A DNA stretch of 64,000 nucleotides, taken from contig NZ_AP022576.1 of NCBI RefSeq assembly GCF_010730355.1, forward strand, positions 6,155,860 through 6,219,859, in the 5' to 3' direction. The position numbers and the translations under genes were made by a program. Shown here piece by piece: positions 30,257 through 44,151 of the stretch (the stretch's first letter is position 1; every line of letters begins with the position of its first letter). The notes under the pieces were generated by a model that was given only the letters and a program-made list of their open reading frames with translations, did no database searches and had not been told where the DNA came from. The stretch comes from Mycobacterium florentinum. GTDB lineage: Bacteria > Actinomycetota > Actinomycetes > Mycobacteriales > Mycobacteriaceae.

Positions 30257-30709
30257 ATGACTGAGCATCGAACGGTTTTCAACCACGTCGGCCTGTGCGT
30301 CTCCGATCGCGAGCGGTCGCGGCGGTTCTACGAGGGCCTGCTCGGTTTCCAGTTCTGGTGGGAGCTTGACCCACCCGACGGCCCGACCGCCAAACTTGTG
30401 CAGCTCCCGGAGCCGTTGGGTGTGCACGCGACCTATCTGGTGCGGGATGGCTTTGTGCTCGAACTGATGGACTACTCCAAGCGGGAGGTTCACACTGGGT
30501 CCGAGCGGGTCATGGATCAGATTGGGCTGACACACATTTCACTCTCGGTGTCGGATCTTCCCGGTGTGCTGGCTCAGGTTGCCTCGTTCGGGGGAGCGGT
30601 GGTCGACGGGACAGTGACCGACGCCATGGCGATGATCCGGGATCCCGACGGGCAACTGCTGGAACTGCTTTCGGACGGGTGGCTTTCGGCTCTGCCGCCG
30701 CGGCCGTAG
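30257..30709 (+). CDS. VOC (glyoxalase/bleomycin resistance) superfamily protein
   Basis: 150 residues, two beta-alpha-beta-beta-beta modules. NHVGLCVSDRERSRRFYEGLLGF at the start gives the first metal His; LTHISLSVSD near residue 95 gives the second, and DPDGQLLELLSD the Glu near 135. A metal-dependent lyase, isomerase or dioxygenase; substrate unknown. Start ATG 30257 with AGGAG upstream. Divergent from the P450 and possibly related to its substrate. Confidence 0.85.
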   Translation: MTEHRTVFNHVGLCVSDRERSRRFYEGLLGFQFWWELDPPDGPTAKLVQLPEPLGVHATYLVRDGFVLELMDYSKREVHTGSERVMDQIGLTHISLSVSDLPGVLAQVASFGGAVVDGTVTDAMAMIRDPDGQLLELLSDGWLSALPPRP

Positions 30710-31136
30710 TTTGTTCGTTCCTAAAAAAGATGTGTGTGTAGCGCGGTTGCTTCGCGCAGGCTGGCTACGAATTCATTCTCCGTTTGGGTAGTGACGGCTG
30801 ACGGGTGCGCATTAAGCAGGATTGTCGACTCTCGGGTTATCGTGCCGAGACATCGCTACTCCTACGTGAAGATGGGGAGTGCCATTCTGCCGAGATACCT
30901 GCTGAACTTTGCATAAGCGCCTCGGCATACGGGCTGCATTGCTACCTACCGTTGGAAGGCAGCTAATTCGGCGGCGGGCTCGACCGACGAGCGGGTTGCA
31001 ATACACCCCGAAGTGACCCCATTCGGGGCTACTAATCGGTATCTTGCTCATGGGCCGGGGTGCCAACCACGAACGGGCGACGCGGTAGCCACCAGCTGGC
31101 CTGTCCAATGATCACGTGGGTATGGAGAGGGCTTCG
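30710..31136. other. Intergenic region at the left edge of the defence island
   Basis: About 400 bp without a convincing gene; short frames here lack family features. Base composition changes from the G+C-rich left side to mixed sequence. It contains the 7-bp hairpin at 31006-31028 and a GGAGAGG Shine-Dalgarno before ATG 31137. No tRNA or integrase remnant was recognised. The promoter of the island operon should lie here. Confidence 0.6.
31006..31028. terminator. 7-bp hairpin upstream of the island operon
   Basis: CCCCGAA (31006-31012), a 9-nt loop and TTCGGGG (31022-31028). No U-tract. It may end transcription from the left flank or act as a regulatory dyad for the operon that begins at 31137. 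Confidence 0.35.
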
Positions 31137-31397
31137 ATGGCGCTCATCACCAGCTTTAGATTTCGTACTGACCGAACTATCAGCTTCAAGACGAAGGTCG
31201 AATGTGGCTGGACGTACGATCGATCCGTCGGTTCCTACCGGCTTCTCCAGCTCGAGACCTATGCCTCCGACGGCACGACAAGTCAGGTGCTTCAGATGGA
31301 TGGGGATCGGGCCGCCGAGCTCTTGAGAATTGTCGAAGAAGTGTTCCCAGGTCTAGCGAAGGCTACGCTCTCGTGCGGGGTCGGCGACGGGCAGTGA
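31137..31397 (+). CDS. Small protein of unknown function, first gene of the island operon
   Basis: 86 residues; no membrane segment. It has a beta-rich first half (MALITSFRFRTDRTISFKTK) and a helical end (DRAAELLRIVEEVFPG), a layout that would suit a small nucleic-acid-binding or regulatory protein, but the family is not recognised. ATG 31137 follows GGAGAGG by 6 nt, favouring it over GTG 31116. Its TGA overlaps the GTG start of the Z1 gene (GTGA), so it belongs to the same translational unit. Confidence 0.65.
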   Translation: MALITSFRFRTDRTISFKTKVECGWTYDRSVGSYRLLQLETYASDGTTSQVLQMDGDRAAELLRIVEEVFPGLAKATLSCGVGDGQ

Positions 31398-34066
31398 CGG
31401 ACACGATGCAAACGACTGATTTGGACACTCTCGCTGCTGAGGATCCGTACGTGAGGCAGCTTGCCCGAATCATCCGCGATAGCCCATCGTCGACGCTCGA
31501 TGACGCGGTCGCAGAGCTGGCCCAAATCGGCGACATCGCCAAGATCAACGAGGCTGCTGCACGCATACGTAAACTCAGCGACCTCATAAAGAATGCGCAA
31601 GTCCCAACTTCTGTTGTCGCCGGCAATATCGAGACGTGGTACCCAGGCCCTCGCGAGGAAGACCGGAATTGGTCCGCACTTGTCGAGATTCTGCGCGCTG
31701 ACGGCTGGGATGACGAGATGTTGAACGACTTGAATAACTCGTCAACGAAGGTCGTGGCGAATCTGCCAAACCCTGCCGGTCGGGGCGAGTATCACTGTCG
31801 TGGACTGGTCCTCGGGTACGTGCAGAGCGGCAAGACCACCAACTTCACTGCGGTGATCGCGAAGGCTGCGGACGCTGGCTACCGGCTTTTCATCATTCTT
31901 TCCGGAATTCACGATGCATTACGCCAGCAAACGCAAGACCGCCTTAACGAACAGCTCTGGGAGCCTCACAGCAATATTTGGCACCGCTTAACCGACGACG
32001 AAGACTTTAGGCCGACGGCCAACGTCGACGCGCTGCTATCTATTCAGCGCCAATGCGTGCTCGCGGTCGTCAAGAAGAATGGGGCACGGCTTCGTGCCCT
32101 CAAAAATTGGTTGTTTGGCGCCCGGCCGGAGGTCCTAGCGGCGTGTCCTGTGTTGATTATTGATGATGAGGCCGACCAGGCCACAGTTAACACTTCGAAG
32201 CCCGATCGGCAACCAACTCGGATCAACGGCCTGATACGCGAGATCGTCAACAAGGTCCCAAAATCGGCGTACGTGGGATATACGGCCACGCCGTTCGCAA
32301 ACGTTCTTATCGACCCGACTGACTACGAGGATCTCTACCCACGCGATTTCATCGTCGACCTTCCTCGACCGCTTCCATACATCGGCCCCGAAGCAATATT
32401 CGGCCGCGAAACGCTTGACTTCGACGACATGGATGTCGGCGACGATGGGAACAATTTCATCCGCACGGTACCAGAGGATGAACTCGATGATCTCCGGCCC
32501 AAGGGCGCTGCGAAGCGCTACCAATTCGAACCACGGATCACAGACAGCCTCGACGCGGCATTGCGGTACTTTCTGATGAGCACCGCAGCTAGGCGGCTGC
32601 GCGGCAAAGGGAATCGGCATGCCACGGCCCTAGTCCACACCTCCCAACACATCGATGTTCACGAGCGGACAGCACAGGCGATTACTGAGCACCTTGTTTC
32701 ACTGCGCGCGCGGTTATCCCGCAGAGACACTGTGCTTTTGGAGTCGCTCGAGCGCCAATGGGCTGATGAGTGTGCGGAGGTTCCCGCGTCCAATTTTCTG
32801 CATGAGGCCGTGGCGTGGTCGGAGCTCGTAGAAGCGTTGCCAGCGGTTGCTGGTGATGCCAAAGTCATTACTGATAACTCTCGAAGCGTCGAAAGGCTAT
32901 CCTTCGATGACTCGAACCCGCGCGTACTCATCGCTGTCGGGGGCAACACACTTTCACGAGGGCTGACTCTCGAGGGCTTGGCGGTCTCCTTCTTCGTTCG
33001 TAGCGCCTCCGCTTACGACACCCTGTTGCAGATGGGGCGTTGGTTCGGATATCGCAACGGGTATGCCGATCTGACCCGCATCTGGATGACAGACGAGATG
33101 CGGGCCTGGTTCCATCATTTGGCGACGGTGGAACAGGAAATTCGTTACGACGTAGAGAGATTGGAGGTCGAACACCTGACTCCAGAGCAGTTTGGTGTAC
33201 GCATCCGTACCCACCCAACCCTCGCGATTACCTCAGCTGCCAAGATGCAGCACGCAAAGACGGCACAAGCCTCGTACGCGGGACGTCGGTTGCAGACAAT
33301 TCTCTTCAATCACAAAGACGTCGAATGGCTTGGGGACAACGTCAGGGCAGCACGCGACCTTGTCTTTTCGGCGGCATCACTGCCGCGGTGGCACCCGAGA
33401 CATGGGATCACCATCTTCGAGGGCATCGATTCACAGAATGTAGTGAGCTTTCTTTCGGCATATCACTTCCACGAGAACAGCCGAGACCTTGACAGCCAGT
33501 TGATAAGCCTCTATATCCTGGACCGCTGCGCGGAAGGTGAACTGCTGCGATTCAACGTCGCGGTGATGGGACGCAGTTCAGACTCGGAGTATCTCGGCGC
33601 AGTCGATCTAGGCGTCGAGGGCACCGAGACCGGTTGCATAAACCGTGCTAGGTTACAGCAAATCGGCGGTGCGACCTATGCAGATATTAAGGCCCTCATG
33701 AGTCGCAATGATCGGGTTATCGATCTGAGGCTTCCTGATGGAACGCTGACCGCGGATACGAAACCTGCTGACCTGTCTAGGTTTCGGAACACGCCGGATA
33801 GCGGGGGTTACGGCGACGGGTCTGGCCTCATCCTCTTGTATCCGGTTTCGAAAGACAGCCGCCCAGTGCGTGGTTCTGTTAAGACACGCGAACCTCTGCA
33901 CGCGGCAATGCACGTCATCGGTGTAGGGCTCGTATTTCCGGAGAGCAGTAACAGCAGAGCCAACGTCGAATACCTCACTGCGGATGTCGCGTCAATGCTC
34001 GATATCGAAGTTGAAGTGCCAGACGACTCCGATGAACCTGTTGAGGCTGAAGTAGAGCCGGCGTGA
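31394..34066 (+). CDS. Z1-domain superfamily II helicase-like ATPase
   Basis: 890 residues. Walker A LGYVQSGKTTN near residue 140, Walker B LIIDDEADQATVNT near 254, motif III-like VGYTATPFANVL near 295 and the C-terminal helicase lobe with GGNTLSRGLTLEGL and LLQMGRWFGYRNGY near 548, which holds the Arg finger. The Z1 domain is the name-giving ATPase of MutL/MORC-Z1 restriction systems (Iyer et al. 2008) and of Mza. It probably translocates on or remodels DNA for the partner nucleases. Start GTG 31394, coupled to the preceding stop; the frame is open upstream to 31202. Confidence 0.92.
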   Translation: MTDTMQTTDLDTLAAEDPYVRQLARIIRDSPSSTLDDAVAELAQIGDIAKINEAAARIRKLSDLIKNAQVPTSVVAGNIETWYPGPREEDRNWSALVEILRADGWDDEMLNDLNNSSTKVVANLPNPAGRGEYHCRGLVLGYVQSGKTTNFTAVIAKAADAGYRLFIILSGIHDALRQQTQDRLNEQLWEPHSNIWHRLTDDEDFRPTANVDALLSIQRQCVLAVVKKNGARLRALKNWLFGARPEVLAACPVLIIDDEADQATVNTSKPDRQPTRINGLIREIVNKVPKSAYVGYTATPFANVLIDPTDYEDLYPRDFIVDLPRPLPYIGPEAIFGRETLDFDDMDVGDDGNNFIRTVPEDELDDLRPKGAAKRYQFEPRITDSLDAALRYFLMSTAARRLRGKGNRHATALVHTSQHIDVHERTAQAITEHLVSLRARLSRRDTVLLESLERQWADECAEVPASNFLHEAVAWSELVEALPAVAGDAKVITDNSRSVERLSFDDSNPRVLIAVGGNTLSRGLTLEGLAVSFFVRSASAYDTLLQMGRWFGYRNGYADLTRIWMTDEMRAWFHHLATVEQEIRYDVERLEVEHLTPEQFGVRIRTHPTLAITSAAKMQHAKTAQASYAGRRLQTILFNHKDVEWLGDNVRAARDLVFSAASLPRWHPRHGITIFEGIDSQNVVSFLSAYHFHENSRDLDSQLISLYILDRCAEGELLRFNVAVMGRSSDSEYLGAVDLGVEGTETGCINRARLQQIGGATYADIKALMSRNDRVIDLRLPDGTLTADTKPADLSRFRNTPDSGGYGDGSGLILLYPVSKDSRPVRGSVKTREPLHAAMHVIGVGLVFPESSNSRANVEYLTADVASMLDIEVEVPDDSDEPVEAEVEPA

Positions 34067-35058
34067 TCGACGAAGTCAGACTCGCATTCAGCGCCCTGAC
34101 CACGCATGGTGCGCCCAGTCCCACAGGACTTGCGGTCCTGCCCGTCAAATGCGGAGAAGGTGTGCTCGTTGGCCTCGACGATCAGTCGCGCCAGCACCTT
34201 TTACTAGCGACGAACGCCGGAATCGGTAAGACGCCGAATGTTACGACCCTCTCATTCACGACTAGAAGCCTTGTTATCGAAGGCCGAAGCGCCCTGTTCT
34301 TGGACATCACGTGCCTGTTCGCAGCGCTTTCGGAGGTTTTTGATCATTTCGCGGCAGCGGTGATCGAACGGATATCAGTTGGTGGTGAGGTGCCTGGGCT
34401 AGCGGTCGAGCATGTTGTTAACGGTTGGCGCGAGTTCCTCGTTCCTCCAACCGGTCCGCCGAGCCGGGACAAGTTAGCGGCAACCCTCGGAGAGCTGCTC
34501 GTTGTTCGAGATGCGATCAAAACCGGACGGAATCCTGATATCGGTTCTTGGGTGGGTCCTTTCGGTCAACGGCATGACTTTCGAAGCGGACCAACGGCTA
34601 TCGAGGTCAAGACGATACGTTCGCACTCTGGGTACCGCATAACAATCCACGGGGAGGACCAGATGTTGCCTCCTGACGGGGGCACCCTACATCTGCATCT
34701 GGTGCGGCTCGAGGAAGTCCACGGGGGGAGCACAAGCGTATCTGCCGTCGTCGATGAACTTCTGGCAGCAGGAGTTTCAGCGCAAAAGCTATTTTCTGCA
34801 CTGATGGCTAATGGCGTCGCGGCCGCAGACCTACCAGATACCGATAACGTGACATTCGAGGTTCGAGAGCGGGTGACTCTGCCGGTTGATGATCGCACCC
34901 CACGAATTGTGCCTGAGACGTTCGTTGGGGGTAAGCGTCCGAATGGCGTAGTGGACGTGAGCTATGTCGTCGATTTGGCCAGTGCGCTTGGTAATTCGCT
35001 CGCGCCAGTCGAGTACCAAGCACTCGTGGCCTCGCTAACCTTAGGAACCGCGACGTGA
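34063..35058 (+). CDS. PD-(D/E)XK motif nuclease (DUF4420-like)
   Basis: 331 residues. The nuclease core is visible: Glu in GELLVVRDAI near residue 143, the motif HDFRSGPTAIEVKT near 170-184 (Asp then E-x-K) and a following strand YRITIHGEDQM with the Gln or Glu often found in this fold. NCBI uses the name PD-(D/E)XK motif protein for Z1-linked members. The likely DNA-cutting subunit of the operon. GTG 34063 overlaps the Z1 stop (GTGA), and its own stop overlaps the next start in the same way. Confidence 0.85.
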   Translation: MIDEVRLAFSALTTHGAPSPTGLAVLPVKCGEGVLVGLDDQSRQHLLLATNAGIGKTPNVTTLSFTTRSLVIEGRSALFLDITCLFAALSEVFDHFAAAVIERISVGGEVPGLAVEHVVNGWREFLVPPTGPPSRDKLAATLGELLVVRDAIKTGRNPDIGSWVGPFGQRHDFRSGPTAIEVKTIRSHSGYRITIHGEDQMLPPDGGTLHLHLVRLEEVHGGSTSVSAVVDELLAAGVSAQKLFSALMANGVAAADLPDTDNVTFEVRERVTLPVDDRTPRIVPETFVGGKRPNGVVDVSYVVDLASALGNSLAPVEYQALVASLTLGTAT

Positions 35059-37049
35059 TTAGGCTTCAGCGATACTCGGAACCGTACAATGCGACGGGCG
35101 GCTTGGCGGCGATCGGCATCCTAAACCAACTTGGGCGTCCTGACACAGAACCGCTAGAAGTGCTGATTCGCGAGGCCGTTCAGAATTGCTGGGACGCGAA
35201 GCGGCCCGATTCACAAGGCATCCGTGTTGAAATCGGCCGCTCGACGCTCGACAGTGAAATGGTCACCCGATTGCGAGACAACGTGCTCGTGGATCCGCCC
35301 CCTGGTCTTGCTCTTGCGAAAGAACTTCGCGATGGCATGTGCACTCTGTATGTCGCCGACTTCGGCACGCACGGTCTTGCCGGGCCGACTCGAGCGGACC
35401 GACAGGGCGAGCCGCGTGACTTCGTCGATTTCGTCCGCAATATTGGTCAGCCGCCCGACAAGGACTTCGGGGGTGGGTCTTTTGGCTACGGAAAAGCCGC
35501 CTTTTATATCGCAAGCACAGCTAGGACGGTCGTGATCGATAGCCTGTGCGAAGTGGCCTCCGGGAAGTTTGAGCGCAGGTTACTTGGTTGCGCTCTTGGT
35601 GACACATTTGATGTCAATGGCGTTCCGTACACCGGCAGGCATTGGTGGGGCCGCATGGTCAACGGAGCGCCAGAGCCCGTCACCGGCGACGAGGCCGACG
35701 AGATCGCCGACTTGCTTGGCCTCCCCGCCAGGGCTGGTGCAGATGGCAGAGGAACTACGGTCCTCGTTGTGGCGCCCTCCGTCCACATCGAGACGGATGA
35801 CGGCGTCGACGCCACGATGGACTTTATCGCCGAGGCAATCGCTTGGAACTTCTGGCCCAGGATGATCGACACTTTGGGCGGCGCAAGGCGAACCATGGAG
35901 TTCGTACTTCGCGACAACGGCAAGCCTATTCGGATACCCAACCCGCGATCACATCAGCGCTTGCGTGGGTTTGTCGAGGCGATGGACCGTCATCGCCAGG
36001 AACCCACAGATGATGTCGACGACCTGACCATTGACACCGAGATTCGCAGCCTTCGCCCAGTGAGACGGCTGGGCCGCTTGACCATACAAAAAGGTCCGGT
36101 AGCACCTGCGGATTTGGCTGACCGACCTGTTCCCCGAGGGGCCCGGATAACCGCGACTAGTGTCCACCACGTGGCGCTTATGCGAACCCCCGAATTGGTC
36201 GTGAATTACTTCGCCGGCGCGGCGCCGGCCAGCGGCAGGCTGGGTTATTCGGGCGTGTTTAAGTGCGCGCTCGATGTTGACGATATGTTCAAAGCTGCCG
36301 AGCCTCCGACCCATGATGACTGGATCTATCGAGCTGTGCAGGATCGGCAGTGGAGATCGTTCGTGAAGATCGCGTTGGAACGCGTCGAGCGCCATTGCCG
36401 GCTCGCGGCTGGCTACGATGCTTCGGTACAGCAACTGCGAGAATCAGACGCAATTCCGCTTGGCGAGTTCGCAGATGCGCTTGCGGCACTTATGCCCGGC
36501 CAAGATGGGCCGGGGGCTAGAAGACAAGGGCCCAAGCGCGATACCAAATCCGGAACCCGCCGCCGGGCGCCAGGTCGAAGGGTTGTCGACAAAGTCACCG
36601 AAGACGCGTGGGTCGACGCCACCACGTCGCGGAACGCTGAACAAAACGCTGGTAACACCGGGGATCACAGCGGGCGAGACTCGGCAACGCGGCAGCGGCC
36701 GCGGCCTCTGCCACCGCCTCAGACTCGGGTCGCAGGTGACCCTAGTCCCGTAATCTCCTTGGACGGCACGCCCGTCATCGCATACCCATTTGAATTGCGC
36801 ACCAAAGGGAATCGTGTCCGACTGACCGCAGACGTAGAGATCATGACCAACGATGGTGCGCTCGTCGAGCTAGAACCCCCTATCGGATACGTGAGGCCTA
36901 CCGTGCATTGCTGGGTCGACCCTTCTGGATCGCGTTATGCAGCAGCTGAATTGACGGTCGGTCCTGATGGCGTCGACGGTGAGTGGGCGGTCGAGATTGA
37001 GCTCAGAGACGAAATGATGAGAGTGGACTTGGCAGTGGAGGCGATTTGA
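35055..37049 (+). CDS. GHKL-type (MutL/Hsp90-like) ATPase
   Basis: 664 residues. The Bergerat ATP-binding fold is present: N-box LIREAVQNCWDAKR near residue 37, G1 box VADFGTHGLAGP near 102 and the lid motif GGGSFGYGKAAFY near 138-150. A middle domain follows; residues about 480-560 are a charged, Pro/Arg-rich linker; the last 100 residues form a beta-rich domain. It corresponds by position to the MutL-like component of Z1 systems (MzaA in Mza). Such ATPases dimerise on ATP and gate nuclease activity. GTG 35055 overlaps the previous stop (GTGA). Confidence 0.82.
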   Translation: MIRLQRYSEPYNATGGLAAIGILNQLGRPDTEPLEVLIREAVQNCWDAKRPDSQGIRVEIGRSTLDSEMVTRLRDNVLVDPPPGLALAKELRDGMCTLYVADFGTHGLAGPTRADRQGEPRDFVDFVRNIGQPPDKDFGGGSFGYGKAAFYIASTARTVVIDSLCEVASGKFERRLLGCALGDTFDVNGVPYTGRHWWGRMVNGAPEPVTGDEADEIADLLGLPARAGADGRGTTVLVVAPSVHIETDDGVDATMDFIAEAIAWNFWPRMIDTLGGARRTMEFVLRDNGKPIRIPNPRSHQRLRGFVEAMDRHRQEPTDDVDDLTIDTEIRSLRPVRRLGRLTIQKGPVAPADLADRPVPRGARITATSVHHVALMRTPELVVNYFAGAAPASGRLGYSGVFKCALDVDDMFKAAEPPTHDDWIYRAVQDRQWRSFVKIALERVERHCRLAAGYDASVQQLRESDAIPLGEFADALAALMPGQDGPGARRQGPKRDTKSGTRRRAPGRRVVDKVTEDAWVDATTSRNAEQNAGNTGDHSGRDSATRQRPRPLPPPQTRVAGDPSPVISLDGTPVIAYPFELRTKGNRVRLTADVEIMTNDGALVELEPPIGYVRPTVHCWVDPSGSRYAAAELTVGPDGVDGEWAVEIELRDEMMRVDLAVEAI

Positions 37050-37939
37050 AGACTGCGGGAGCCACCCCATATTTGTTGCCGCCGGACTCGGTAATGGTCA
37101 CTCAACCTTGGTGTGTTGCCGATGGCGTAGAAATCGGTGACCGAGTTGATCATTGGGATCCCTTTACGGATCTTCAACTAGTGCGCGTCGTAGAGGTGGA
37201 CCTCGAGGGTGTGCGCGACGCTTGCGCGTTGCCAAATGACGCAGCATTTGCGATCGCCACGACGTGGTCCTCGAACAGAACTCGGACCACGGGCGACGGA
37301 CCCGTGGTCGAGCTGGGATCTCTGCGCGGACTGGCGCGAACTGCTTTAACACTCTGTGTACCTGGGGCCTTGTCTGGAGGTCGATTGGCCCTGCGGACGC
37401 GATTGGTTCTACGCAGCCCCGGTAGGGCCCCGTCGCCAATCTCTCCCCGCCGGTTCGGTGCAATCCTGTGGGAGGAGGAGACGCAGATCTTGCTCGAAGG
37501 TGGGGCGGCGCGATTCCCAATCACGGCAGCCGATTTCAAGGCACTGCCTAACTATCCAGACAATGCGGCTTGGGTACTGGACTGGGATCCCGATGAACTC
37601 GAAGCGCCGGTGCTGGGCGGTATGCGACTCATCGTCAACAGCAGCCACGAAGTGATGCCCGAGCTGCTGCGCTCAGGCAGCTCAGACCCAAGAGCCGGGC
37701 TCTTAAGGTCGTTCGTAACGTTCGATGTTGCTAGATCGCTTATTGCTGGCGCGTTGCGTAACGATCGTTTCGTGGACGAACCAGAGGCTTTCGACGACGG
37801 CACTGTAGGCCGGATGCTGTTCGAGCTCATTTCGATGTGCTGGCCGGGCATGCAACTGCCAGCCCTCCAGTCGCGCAGTCTTCAGGATTCAGCCCGGCTG
37901 TTTGCCGAGTTGCAAGCAAGGTTCGGAGTAGTCGGGTGA
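37046..37939 (+). CDS. Unknown protein of the Z1 operon
   Basis: 297 residues with no recognised catalytic motif. It begins MKTAGATPYLLPPDSVMVTQ; the middle has a hydrophobic-beta pattern (RLALRTRLVLRSPGRAPSP) and the C-terminal half is helical (GRMLFELISMCWPG). Probably a structural or DNA-contacting component of the complex. Start TTG 37046 overlaps the ATPase stop (TTGA), which is the reason for choosing it. Genes in this position accompany Z1 systems but I cannot name a family. Confidence 0.7.
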   Translation: MKTAGATPYLLPPDSVMVTQPWCVADGVEIGDRVDHWDPFTDLQLVRVVEVDLEGVRDACALPNDAAFAIATTWSSNRTRTTGDGPVVELGSLRGLARTALTLCVPGALSGGRLALRTRLVLRSPGRAPSPISPRRFGAILWEEETQILLEGGAARFPITAADFKALPNYPDNAAWVLDWDPDELEAPVLGGMRLIVNSSHEVMPELLRSGSSDPRAGLLRSFVTFDVARSLIAGALRNDRFVDEPEAFDDGTVGRMLFELISMCWPGMQLPALQSRSLQDSARLFAELQARFGVVG

Positions 37940-39144
37940 TCGTCCTTCCGCGCATCGACAGACAGACTGCGCTTGAGCTACTTAATAGCCACCTAAGCGA
38001 AGACTTGCTCGAAATCAGCAGTCGCATGCCCGACCAAACTCCGGTTGTCACGTTCACCCCAGTAGGGGGTTTGCGGATTGACGACCAGCAACTTATCGAT
38101 CTCCGCAAGGAGGTGGTGGAACTCGCCTGTCGGTACGGGATGCCGGGCCGGATTACCAGCCTTTCTGTGTTCGAGGGACGTTTAGCTCGCCTGCTGCACG
38201 AGCGTATTCCGATGTCTCTCAACGAGGCTTCACATGAAGAAGTGTGGAGCTACCTGACCTGCTGCTGGCTCCTCGACATAGCAGTCTGGAGATTCGGCAA
38301 AGACGCTGATGCGCGTAGGTTCATCGGTGATGTTAACCGCAATACATTTAGGCGGCTCTGGTGGAGGGCCGCAATTATGGGTCCTCAGGTGGATCTCACT
38401 CGTCTAGGTGAAGATGAGCTAGTGAACATTACTGAGCGCCCCACAATCGCAAGCGATCACAGGCTGGCACGCACGGTTGCGTTCGAGTTTCTGGATCGCG
38501 TTGACCGCGGTGAGGCCGAACCACGCATGCTGCTGATGCGTGACGCTATGAAAAGATTGCTCCGCCTGACGCCGTTTATTTCCTTTGCAGCACTGCGCGA
38601 TAACGAGGTTCGTGAGGTCGTTGAGGATTGCTTCGACGCAGCAGCTCTAGCTCTCTCGCGCGAGTCCGGAGATACCGGTGGGCGTCACCGCAGCTTGTCG
38701 AAAGTCGAAGCTAGGGGCGCGCACCGCGACGTGCCGCCAGTTAGCCCCGGCGTCGTCGCGATTGAACGAATGACGATGACAGAAGACGAACCCGCGAAAA
38801 ATCCTTCTTCTACGGGTGTGACGCCGGATTTCGAGAATGTTGCGCAGACAGCATTGGGGATTGCCCGTCGGGTGGGTAGCGTCACGAACAGCAATTTGCG
38901 AGAGATAGTGCCGATTACGTCAGGTGAGGCAAGGGAGGTACTGCAAACGCTGATGAAGGAAGGGCTGCTGGCGCGGCGGGGTGTGAGACGTGGAACTTAC
39001 TATGTGTTGGCGGAGTCGGCGGCCACCCCGGACACGGCTTGGCCCCCGCAAACACCAACGGAAACAACTGAACTCGGAGAAATGGATGTCAGTGCTGCGA
39101 GCAGTGAATCCGCCTTGCGCCGACTCCTTCGCAGAGTCAAGTGA
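37936..39144 (+). CDS. DUF6339-like protein with C-terminal winged-helix
   Basis: 402 residues. The helical N-terminal domain (about 1-230) has EVWSYLTCCWLLDIAVWRF and GDVNRNTFRRLWWRA, the pattern of the DUF6339 family that occurs next to Z1 and PD-(D/E)XK genes. A disordered Thr/Glu/Pro linker follows; residues about 310-360 look like a winged helix (ITSGEAREVLQTLMKEGLL, then RRGVRRGTYYVL), so it may contact DNA or regulate the operon. GTG 37936 overlaps the previous stop by 4 nt. Family assignment from memory; function unknown. Confidence 0.68.
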   Translation: MIVLPRIDRQTALELLNSHLSEDLLEISSRMPDQTPVVTFTPVGGLRIDDQQLIDLRKEVVELACRYGMPGRITSLSVFEGRLARLLHERIPMSLNEASHEEVWSYLTCCWLLDIAVWRFGKDADARRFIGDVNRNTFRRLWWRAAIMGPQVDLTRLGEDELVNITERPTIASDHRLARTVAFEFLDRVDRGEAEPRMLLMRDAMKRLLRLTPFISFAALRDNEVREVVEDCFDAAALALSRESGDTGGRHRSLSKVEARGAHRDVPPVSPGVVAIERMTMTEDEPAKNPSSTGVTPDFENVAQTALGIARRVGSVTNSNLREIVPITSGEAREVLQTLMKEGLLARRGVRRGTYYVLAESAATPDTAWPPQTPTETTELGEMDVSAASSESALRRLLRRVK

Positions 39145-39196
39145 AGATCAAAATTTCCGTGGCGGTAGGCGTCGCTCCGACGATAAAGGATAGTTA

Positions 39197-39703
39197 ATGG
39201 GTTCGCAGGAAGCGCCGCGAGCAGCCGACTCGTCGCCTCCACCGCTCAGCGAGAGCGTCCGCCGCCAGATGAGCGCAATGCCCACGAGAGACACCGGCAC
39301 AGAGATGGCTCTCCGGAGAGAGCTTCACAGGCGGGGGTTGCGTTTCCGTGTGCAAGTCCGAACACTTCCTGGGCGGCCCGACGTCGCCTTCACGCGTGCG
39401 CGGATAGCGGTGTTCGTCGACGGCTGCTTCTGGCATCGCTGTCCCTCACACGGCACCTCACCAAAAAACAATGCGGAGTGGTGGGCCGCGAAGCTTGAGG
39501 CGAACGTGATCAGAGACAAAAAGAAAGACGAGATGCTGCGGTGTCTCGGCTGGCTACCCATCCACATTTGGGAACACGAAGACCCTGGCGAGGCTGCCGA
39601 GGCGATTCACAATCTTTGGCGAATGCGGGTCCATCCTCCGAAAGATATGGTGGATGGGTCCGCTAATGCGTGTTCGTGGAACGACATCCAGCGGCCCGAG
39701 TGA
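39197..39703 (+). CDS. vsr: Very short patch repair (Vsr) endonuclease
   Basis: 168 residues. Core motifs of Vsr are clear: RRQMSAMPTRDTGTEMALRR, GRPDVAFTRARIAVFVDGCF (catalytic Asp in GRPD), WHRCP (Zn-site residues) and EANVIRDKK. It nicks 5' of the T in T:G mismatches that arise when methylated C deaminates. It lies 93 bp upstream of the C5 methyltransferase, as expected. A 52-bp gap separates it from the Z1 operon, so it may have its own promoter. ATG 39197. Confidence 0.92.
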   Translation: MGSQEAPRAADSSPPPLSESVRRQMSAMPTRDTGTEMALRRELHRRGLRFRVQVRTLPGRPDVAFTRARIAVFVDGCFWHRCPSHGTSPKNNAEWWAAKLEANVIRDKKKDEMLRCLGWLPIHIWEHEDPGEAAEAIHNLWRMRVHPPKDMVDGSANACSWNDIQRPE

Positions 39704-39795
39704 CTGGGCACCTTCGACGTGGGCGGACCACCGCGGCTTCGGCGCGCAACGGCGCGCCTCAGTACTGTGTCGCCCCCCTCACTTAATCTGGCTGT

Positions 39796-41739
39796 ATGAC
39801 CGCGCGCCAAGTGACGACTTCTGGATCGTCGTATGCGGTTAAGCAGATTCGTGGGCCGTTCGTCGAGCTTGATCCGCACCCATGCCACACGCGTTCGGAT
39901 ACGGATCTCGCCGCGCTCTGCACCGATCTGCGGGCTCACGGTGTGCCGTTGGTGGCAGACCTGTTCAGTGGAGCCGGTGGTATGAGTCTCGGTTTCGAGG
40001 AAGCCGGTTTCAGGGTGGTTTTGGGGGTCGACCACTATGGCTTTGCAGTGGAGACGCATCGGCATCATTTCGCCGGGATGTCGTTGGACGACGACCTAGC
40101 GGACCCAGCAATGATTGAGCGGGTCGCAAAGCTGTTAAAGCGCAACAAAATCGACGTCCTAACCGGCGGCCCGCCGTGCCAGCCGTTTTCTAGGGCGGGA
40201 CGGTCGATGATTCGGCACCGCGTTTTGACGGGCGTAGCCGATCCGCATGACGAACGTCGTGACCTGTGGCGGTCCTTCTTGGAAGTTGTTCAGTTGGCAC
40301 GCCCTCGGGCAGTAGTCATGGAGAACGTTCCTGATATGGCGCTAGACCGCGAAATGTTCATCTTGCGCAGCATGACCGAGGAACTCGAACAAATCGGTTA
40401 TTCGGTCTCCGCGCGCGTGATAGATAGTTGGCGCTTCGGCGTACCCCAAATGCGGCAGCGCTTGCTATTGGTCGCCCTCAAAAGCCGCATCCGTTTCACT
40501 TGGCCGGCAGAATCAGAGAAGCGGGTTACTTTGTGGAACGCTATTGGTGATATGCCTGAAGTCGAAGGTGGATGGCGTCCGGCCGGCGGAGCTTTCGGAT
40601 GGGCGAATTACGTTGGGCCTCGTACTGAATACCAAACGTGGATGCGACGAAACGTCTCGGCGGCAGATGCCTGCAAACTATTCGACCACATTACTAGGCC
40701 CGTTCGCGAGGATGACCGTGCCGCATTTGAATCTATGACCCACAAGACGAAGTACACGGACTTAGCGCCCGAGTACCAGCGCTATCGCAAAGATATCTTT
40801 GATGACAAGTACAAGAAGCTCGATGAGAACGATCTTTCTCGCACAATAACAGCACACATTGCGAAAGACGGTTATTGGTATATCCACCCCAGACAGCCGC
40901 GTACACTCACGGTCCGTGAGGCCGCTCGGATTCAAACTTTTCCGGATGATTTTCGTTTTGCTGGGCCACCGTCGGCAGCTTTCAAGCAGATCGGTAACGC
41001 GGTCCCACCCCTAGTCGGAGAGGTGATTGCTAAGGCGGTAAGGACTTCACTGGCGTCAGGAACGAAGGCTGGGCTTTCCACTCGAGAGACTTCCGGGAAG
41101 TTGGCACGTTGGTTTCAACAACAGTCTTCCATCGCTGCGATCCCGTGGTTCAAGACTGGGAACCGTTGGAAGTTCCTTCTAGCCGAACTTCTTCTTGACC
41201 GCGCGACGCCGACTGTCATGAACGCGGTGTGGCCGATCATCGACAAGCGGCACGACATCCGCCCTGGAGAGTTGCCCGATGACGAGGCGGTCGATCTCCT
41301 CGACGAACTCATGTCGGGAGTGGGCCGCGGCCAGCGGATTTCGGCGGTGCGTCAGCTTGTTGCGCAGTTGTCTGCTGCCCCAAATGCGTTGTGGGAGCCA
41401 ACAATCGACCGCACAGTACTCTCGGTCATACCGTCTGCAGTGGCGGACTTACTGGAGCTCGCTTTGCCAATCAGCCACGAAGGGCGAGATAGCGAGGAGC
41501 CTGTACTAATCACTAAGGGTGTTTTGCGCGTCACCAGCCGGTTCCAAGGCAACGACGCCGACAAGAGAAATGTGCAGACTGATGGGCGCATCGCGGTGGC
41601 CAGCATGATCGGCTTCGGCGACGATTCGCGGCCTGCGCACTTGGGGCTTATCGCGTTGGCGGCTGACATTTGTCTGGTGGAAAAGCCGCTGTGCGGCGAT
41701 TGTCCCCTAAGCAGGTGGTGCGCGGCAGCCGGCGGTTAG
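39796..41739 (+). CDS. DNA C5-cytosine methyltransferase fused to an endonuclease III-like Fe-S domain
   Basis: 647 residues. Methyltransferase domain (about 48-420): motif I ADLFSGAGGMSLGFEEAG at 54, the catalytic PPCQPFS at 126, ENVPD at 175, QMRQR at 218, and motifs IX-X (REAARIQTFPDDF, FKQIGNAVPP). Second domain (430-647): RWKFLLAELLLDRATPT resembles the start of HhH-GPD glycosylases, and the end has Cys626-X6-Cys633-X2-Cys636-X5-Cys642, the 4Fe-4S loop of EndoIII/MutY. The expected HhH glycines and catalytic Asp are not seen (EPVLITKGVLRV). Methylates C in an unknown site. ATG 39796. Confidence 0.9.
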   Translation: MTARQVTTSGSSYAVKQIRGPFVELDPHPCHTRSDTDLAALCTDLRAHGVPLVADLFSGAGGMSLGFEEAGFRVVLGVDHYGFAVETHRHHFAGMSLDDDLADPAMIERVAKLLKRNKIDVLTGGPPCQPFSRAGRSMIRHRVLTGVADPHDERRDLWRSFLEVVQLARPRAVVMENVPDMALDREMFILRSMTEELEQIGYSVSARVIDSWRFGVPQMRQRLLLVALKSRIRFTWPAESEKRVTLWNAIGDMPEVEGGWRPAGGAFGWANYVGPRTEYQTWMRRNVSAADACKLFDHITRPVREDDRAAFESMTHKTKYTDLAPEYQRYRKDIFDDKYKKLDENDLSRTITAHIAKDGYWYIHPRQPRTLTVREAARIQTFPDDFRFAGPPSAAFKQIGNAVPPLVGEVIAKAVRTSLASGTKAGLSTRETSGKLARWFQQQSSIAAIPWFKTGNRWKFLLAELLLDRATPTVMNAVWPIIDKRHDIRPGELPDDEAVDLLDELMSGVGRGQRISAVRQLVAQLSAAPNALWEPTIDRTVLSVIPSAVADLLELALPISHEGRDSEEPVLITKGVLRVTSRFQGNDADKRNVQTDGRIAVASMIGFGDDSRPAHLGLIALAADICLVEKPLCGDCPLSRWCAAAGG

Positions 41740-43021
41740 AAACCTAGCCCCCGGGCAAGCTCGGGGTGTTGGTCTTGCATGAAGGCCATTACCTTCTTGA
41801 AGGCTTCGTAGTGACCTGACTGAATTGCCGCTGATTTAAGCGCTAACCCGATCTCCGGCAGCGAGCCGGTGGCTGGTGCTTTGTCGTCGTTCTCAGTCCC
41901 GTCGTCAAGGTCGTCAGTTGTGTCCGCGTTGTGGCGGCGGTAAACACGGTCGGCAAGAATGCATAACTCACTGACGGGTCGCTCCAACATCTGTTTGAGC
42001 TGGGCAGGTACCGACACCCGCATCTTTGCGACATTGATATTGAAAACCTCATCAAGACTGCTCGTGAAGTCGAGACTCGCGCGGGCCAGCTTTGTGTGTT
42101 CGTCGATGCCACGGGTACCCGCCCAGCTACCCCATTGCACCAGCCGGTTCTCCCGATACACATAGAGGCCCTGCTGCCGGTTCCAATTGAGCGGTCCGGC
42201 CGCGTTCTCGAATGCGTCGGGAGAGCTAAATGTTCTTTTCCCAGGGGAGGATGTAGCGACGGAGCTCGACTGCTCCAACCCCCCGTTGCGCTCTCCAACT
42301 CGAACTGCTGGGTCGACAGTTGCTGCGTCCCCGGTTCGTGGCGAACGAATGGGTCCCACGCTAAGAGCTTGTCACCATTGACGCTGATAGAAATCCTGGG
42401 AGCGTTGTTCTCGCCGGTTATGAACCGGTGGAACACCATCGCCAAGTGACGCTTGGTCTTCTCGACCAGCACCTCGAAACGTCGCTTAGCCCACCCGCCG
42501 GCGGCACCAGAAGCGGGAAGTACGCGGTCCAGATTCTGCCATACGACGACGGTGCCCGTCCCTGTGCCGAGCAACTCTTCGCTCCTAGCGACAGCATGAT
42601 CGCGTGGGTTCTCGGCAAGGACCCAATCGTCCAGCTCGGCAATGAGATCCAAATCCAGCGATCTCCACAGCGGACGTTTGCGATCGGCTGATCTAGAGAC
42701 AACAGTCACGCAACGAGCTTGGGACAGCGATGCCGTCTTAAGTCCAAGTCCGTATCGCCCAAGGTCGCCCGAACCGTAGGTGCGGCGGCTACCGAAGCGG
42801 AGGGCCTCAAGCATGCCCCGCGCGTTCAGGCCAGCACCATTGTCGGCAACATAGACGGTGGAGGCCTGACCAGCGAACTCGATTTCGACTCCCACATCGG
42901 TCGCGCCGGCGGCGATACTGTTGTCTATAAGGTCGGCAACCGCGCTGACGAAATCGTACCCAATGTCCCGCAACGACGATGTGAGCCGAGCGGCCGATGG
43001 CGCGGCATTGGAAAGTTTCAT
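41736..43021 (-). pseudogene. MORC-like GHKL ATPase, frameshifted in a G6 tract
   Basis: Expected about 428 residues. N-terminus: N-box AVADLIDNSIAAGA near residue 28, G1 VADNGAGLNARGM near 58, lid LGRYGLGLKTASLSQ near 88, as in MORC/MutL-type ATPases of restriction systems. The first frame runs to the six-G tract (42279-42284) and then goes out; the true continuation (RQQGLYVYRENRLVQWGSW, then FNINVAKMRVSVP) is in the next frame, ending at 41736. One extra G restores a single protein. So it is either phase-variable, recently broken or a sequence error. ATG 43021. Its 3' end overlaps the methyltransferase stop by 4 nt. Confidence 0.82.
42279..42284. repeat. C6/G6 homopolymer at the ATPase frameshift
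   Basis: Six C on the plus strand, read as GGGGGG in the MORC-like gene. It is exactly where the ATPase frame changes; seven G would give an intact gene. Such tracts can slip during replication or sequencing. Confidence 0.7.
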
Positions 43022-43184
43022 CGATTCAAGGCTCCAGGTTCCGTCCTGACGTTGGCCTTAAGTTAAACAGCAGGCACAGACAATATCGGACCGACTCGCG
43101 CGGCACACCCCAACTTTCGGCGTCTGCTGCGTACCGGGATTTGCCGTAGCGCAGACCACGGCGCCAAGGCCCGATCGGCGCTCC

Positions 43185-43898
43185 ATGTCAAGTCTCGCAA
43201 GTTCTAAGAGTAGAAATGCAGGGCCGTCGGTTACGTTCATCGCTGTGGAAGCCAACGACCGAGCGCACGCCTTCGTACAGTGGTTGTCCAGCCTGACGCT
43301 ACTCACTCGAACGTTCGACGCGTCTAAGGCGTGGCGGGAGCACCGCTATCAGTTCGCCTACCGTTTAGGAGAGCTGCTCGCCGGCGCGACCGATACTGCT
43401 GGGGCTGTCCAGGGACCAGTTGTTTACGGTATTTGGCTCGATTGGGGCTGCCTATATATCGGACAGACGACGGAGGCGTCGCGCCGGCTCCGCGACCTAC
43501 CTGTTGGCGAAAGTCATCACCTCGCCACAACATTTCCTCCCGAGATATGGGATCGCGTGGTCGTCGTGGCCTGGCCAGCCTTGCCGGAAGCCGAAGTACT
43601 GATGGCCGACTTCGATTCGAACAGGATTGGTCTAGCGCTCGAGTACCGGCTGCAATCTCGGCTGAAACCATTGGTAAATTCCTGGCGCCGGACACCCAAC
43701 GGCGGTTGGCGCGCTGTCGACTGGTCTAGAAGTACCTCGGTGGGAGCCCGCGCAGCAGCGCAGATCGACACGCTGTCAGAACGGCTGGATGAGCTCTTCG
43801 ACCGCGCATCCACCGATGAGATCGGGGACGCGCCATTGGCAAGCCATGTACGTTGCGTAAGACCAAGGCGTCTTTTGTATGGTGAGCTGGGTTTGTAG
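43185..43898 (+). CDS. GIY-YIG nuclease, candidate restriction endonuclease
   Basis: 237 residues. The GIY-YIG core appears as VVYGIWLDWGCLYIGQ near residues 79-94, with the Arg about 10 residues later (ASRRLRDL), the metal-binding Glu in LALEYRLQSRL near 150 and the KPLVN segment after it, the order seen in GIY-YIG restriction enzymes such as Eco29kI. It is divergent from the GHKL gene and next to the methyltransferase set, so it is the best candidate for the site-specific cutter. Starts: ATG 43185 or GTG 43245. Long helical N- and C-terminal additions. Confidence 0.75.
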   Translation: MSSLASSKSRNAGPSVTFIAVEANDRAHAFVQWLSSLTLLTRTFDASKAWREHRYQFAYRLGELLAGATDTAGAVQGPVVYGIWLDWGCLYIGQTTEASRRLRDLPVGESHHLATTFPPEIWDRVVVVAWPALPEAEVLMADFDSNRIGLALEYRLQSRLKPLVNSWRRTPNGGWRAVDWSRSTSVGARAAAQIDTLSERLDELFDRASTDEIGDAPLASHVRCVRPRRLLYGELGL

Positions 43899-43933
43899 GT
43901 GCTAATAAGTCGGCGCTCGATGAGATGATTTGC

Positions 43934-43969
43934 GTCGCGACCCGGTTGGAAGTCGCGACCCGGTTGGAA
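43934..43969. repeat. Perfect tandem 18-bp duplication at island right end
   Basis: GTCGCGACCCGGTTGGAA at 43934-43951 is repeated exactly at 43952-43969. It lies just past the GIY-YIG stop (43898) and before the EcsC gene (44152), in a 250-bp stretch with no convincing gene, and marks the approximate return to host-like sequence. Confidence 0.85.
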
Positions 43970-44151
43970 ATTGTGAAATCAGGTTCCGATCAAGCGGCAC
44001 GGCCCGACACATGCCGTGGCTGGGAGCGCGGCTAACCGGCTGCCTGCTGTTACAGGCTTCGACTCGGGACAAGCTTTCGATGTCGACACCCTGCCTACTC
44101 CTCGCCGCTGTGCTGTGATGTTGCTCAGAAGAATCACGTCGGGAGCATCGG

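Follow-up and report, generated by a model that had tools for sequence, protein, structure and literature searches.

A predicted restriction-type defence operon, with Vsr, Dcm and a MORC homologue as neighbours, in a genomic island of Mycobacterium florentinum

A row of genes in Mycobacterium florentinum, lying at 31137..39144 of the window (the 64,000-nucleotide stretch of contig NZ_AP022576.1 analysed here), includes five genes, g2 to g6 (Table 1), that together look like an ATP-dependent operon for defence of the restriction type. Judged by its sequence, the locus would be a variant of a restriction-type defence kind that has already been predicted, not a new kind. The DNA-cutting, anti-virus family that g2-g6 resembles is known from sequence prediction, and a literature search gave no experimental test of it. 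An initial annotation had noticed the tight packing of the row, which is real and conserved, and had interpreted the row as one defence machine. That interpretation finds support for a restriction-type core of g2-g6 but not for the first gene, g1, as a core member. The proteins of the set whose function is unknown adjoin each other in every copy compared (compared loci are given L numbers).

Table 1. Features of the island (positions in the window)
Feature	Position	Strand	Description	Evidence
Island	30710..44135		Low-GC island enclosing the whole set	GC drop and flank conservation
g1	31137..31397	+	Small protein (86 amino acids), function unknown	Accessory to core
g2	31394..34066	+	Z1 protein	PF10593 E 1.3e-67; PADLOC MzaC 2.5e-101
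g3	34063..35058	+	DUF4420 PD-(D/E)XK nuclease, MzaD-like	PF14390 E 5.7e-34
g4	35055..37049	+	GHKL-motif ATPase	PADLOC PDC-M33A 2.7e-13; invariant motifs
g5	37046..37939	+	297-amino-acid protein, Ig/FnIII-like beta sandwich and helical C-terminus	
g6	37936..39144	+	DUF6339 helical core and winged-helix C-terminus	
g7	39197..39703	+	Vsr mismatch endonuclease	PF03852 5e-20; TIGR00632 121.2 bits (cut-off 97.85)
g8	39796..41739	+	C5-cytosine DNA methyltransferase (Dcm) with C-terminal MutY/EndoIII-like Fe-S domain	PF00145 1.2e-57
g9	41736..43021	-	MORC/MzaB-like ATPase gene, split between two frames	Open reading frames 43021-41843 and 42359-41736

The core and its accessory gene

Over 25 sequences of g2, the motifs GKT, DDExD and TAxPF are invariant, as are residues of DTxLQMxRWFG (the window protein reads DTLLQMGRWFG, with D, T, Q, R, F and G invariant). 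In g3, E144, D172, E181 and K183 (E181xK183) are invariant over 20 sequences. The assignment of g4 comes from its motifs, with E40xxQN44xxD47A48, D102xxT105xG107L, G141xxG144xG146K147 and G233T234 invariant over 25 sequences; Pfam gave no GHKL match, and profile searches reached no GHKL family of any kind. E416-P-x-x-H420 is invariant in the same 25, from which g4 may be called paraMORC2-like.

The remaining two proteins probably serve as an adaptor (g5) and a DNA reader (g6). The C-terminal domains of g6 vary from locus to locus, and L029 and L030 each carry DUF6339 as a fusion with a Dcm-like domain. A C5-methyltransferase-like domain with GGLPRVKS at the PCQ loop was seen at L029:10447-12291, L030:7759-9603 and L060:9092-10096, twice as the DUF6339 fusion and once standing alone; in each case a neighbouring Dcm retains PCQ.

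The product of g1, which the initial annotation could not recognize, has no family at E 1 in Pfam, PADLOC or NCBIfam. It has 84 homologues, and of those on contigs of at least 4 kb, 24 of 54 are on a contig matching in size that of a g4 or g5 homologue, a comparison that took in only 53 of the 120 listed g5 contigs and 59 of the 120 listed g4 contigs. The overlap of g1 with g2 is kept in two of six cases. We rejected g1 as a core gene and count it as accessory.

Relation to described systems

The combination of Z1, GHKL and PD-(D/E)XK proteins had been likened to Mza. The PADLOC searches that had been proposed bear out the kinship through the match of g2 to MzaC, as does the MzaD-like g3, but the locus does not belong to Mza: the NCBIfam scores fall far under cut-off (402.9 of 1500 bits for MzaC, 58.6 of 420 bits for MzaD), and the AIPR protein MzaE is absent from the locus, as had been claimed.

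Miller et al. 2022 (PMC9523054) predicted a Type I defence system with three extra genes that go unnamed in the parts of the text considered; set against that text description, the window locus has in addition g1, the fused Dcm and the MORC homologue. A third type of operon, one that has MORC or paraMORC, was described by Iyer, Abhiman and Aravind 2008 (PMC2292703). The window locus differs in having two distinct GHKL-type genes, and g5 and DUF6339 find no description in the passages of that paper that were compared. In the CglI/NgoAVII restriction-modification systems (PMC4267653), the nuclease is a PLD-B3 protein. The window locus has instead PD-(D/E)XK and GHKL-motif proteins, g5 and DUF6339, and a scan of nine proteins gave no Pfam match to PLD or B3 at E 1. 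A phage origin of the set is unsupported: g5 had no match in 50,697 phage records, and none was confirmed on viral contigs by a pattern search with a reach of close relatives.

The Vsr, Dcm and MORC neighbours and rival explanations

Downstream of g6 lies a module of Vsr, Dcm and a convergent MORC homologue. The C-terminal domain of Dcm (residues about 430-647) matches mutY weakly (4.6e-5, residues 575-645) and is shared by ten Dcm proteins (those of the window, of L036 and of eight further loci). All ten, when aligned, keep four cysteines and have no aspartate at the usual catalytic place, as judged by EndoIII/MutY motifs. It is possible that the domain is a dead glycosylase employed for DNA reading. 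The MORC homologue adjoins Dcm in all ten, and two AIPR-type loci (L046 and L048) have a comparable convergent pair nearby. Relative to Vsr, the pair is inverted in the window compared with L005-L010 and L012; in L036, likewise, Dcm is the first gene after g6. A profile of the nine intact homologues of g9 matched MORC2 (9.4e-9) and MutL (1.9e-6) in PDB. Their reading frames are open, whereas that of the window is broken, and when the two pieces were queried separately, the first covered about the first 60% of these homologues and the second the remainder.

Perhaps the core senses not a missing host methyl mark but foreign or altered DNA (phage base modifications, ends or structures), in the manner of type IV-like modification-dependent systems, and Dcm and Vsr are neighbours with a separate role. 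The variation of the g6 C-terminal domains would be sensor-like behaviour, and Dcm was not detected in seven of 26 loci, including the three plasmids (three of the seven loci end early on that side). However, Dcm is found in 19 of the 26 (as many as have Vsr; 39197-41739 in the window), and the fusions of DUF6339 to a Dcm-like domain also speak against a separate role. We consider this alternative unlikely.

Still less likely is that the system, active elsewhere, is a decaying remnant in this strain, its MORC homologue disrupted. A single homologue is indeed spanned by two frames, and relatives carry other broken copies (DUF4420 split in L009, the g4 gene in L011), but in the window every core gene from g2 to g6 has an open frame, as do Vsr and Dcm, and the break in g9 may be either a mutation or a sequencing error. 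Moreover, the MORC homologue is dispensable to the core, since a full-length copy was found in only one of 13 far loci (L030 and L037 give short, weak matches). Finally, Vsr and the MutY-like Fe-S domain are of a repair type, as would suit a set devoted to DNA repair or chromosome maintenance around cytosine methylation (Dcm, Vsr, the MutY-like domain and MutL/MORC relatives) and not to defence, a proposal we regard as quite improbable.

The island and its site

Several homologous loci have neighbours of their own. A DISARM-like DrmA and an MZB-domain protein adjoin one (L031:13839-18931), and a HATPase_c_3 protein whose C-terminal domain is Hypoth_Ymh adjoins another (L037:7085-8761). An open reading frame of 1053 amino acids adjoins g6 in three (L028:4728-7889, L032:8453-11614 and L034:12084-15245); the L028 copy, the only one scanned, combines a UvrD helicase and a PD-(D/E)XK domain.

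The GC content is 58.5% over 31116-43100 and 66.3% on either side. Near the right end of the island is a perfect tandem direct repeat of 18 nucleotides (43934-43969), and a perfect inverted repeat of 16 nucleotides has its arms at 42896-42911 and 43379-43394. The reading frame at 43185-43898 (237 amino acids) has no Pfam or PADLOC match. The left flank is kept in four relatives as far as 30709-30716, and the right flank from 44136 onward in one. Three relatives have kinases that match PD-T4-6 models, though these could be ordinary ones. The content of the site thus varies, and genes of a defence type can occur there: in relatives it is occupied by SspF/SspG/SspH-like genes with Dcm (G017, L099:8017-17583) and by a protein with SRA and HNH (G031, L098:2433-3275).
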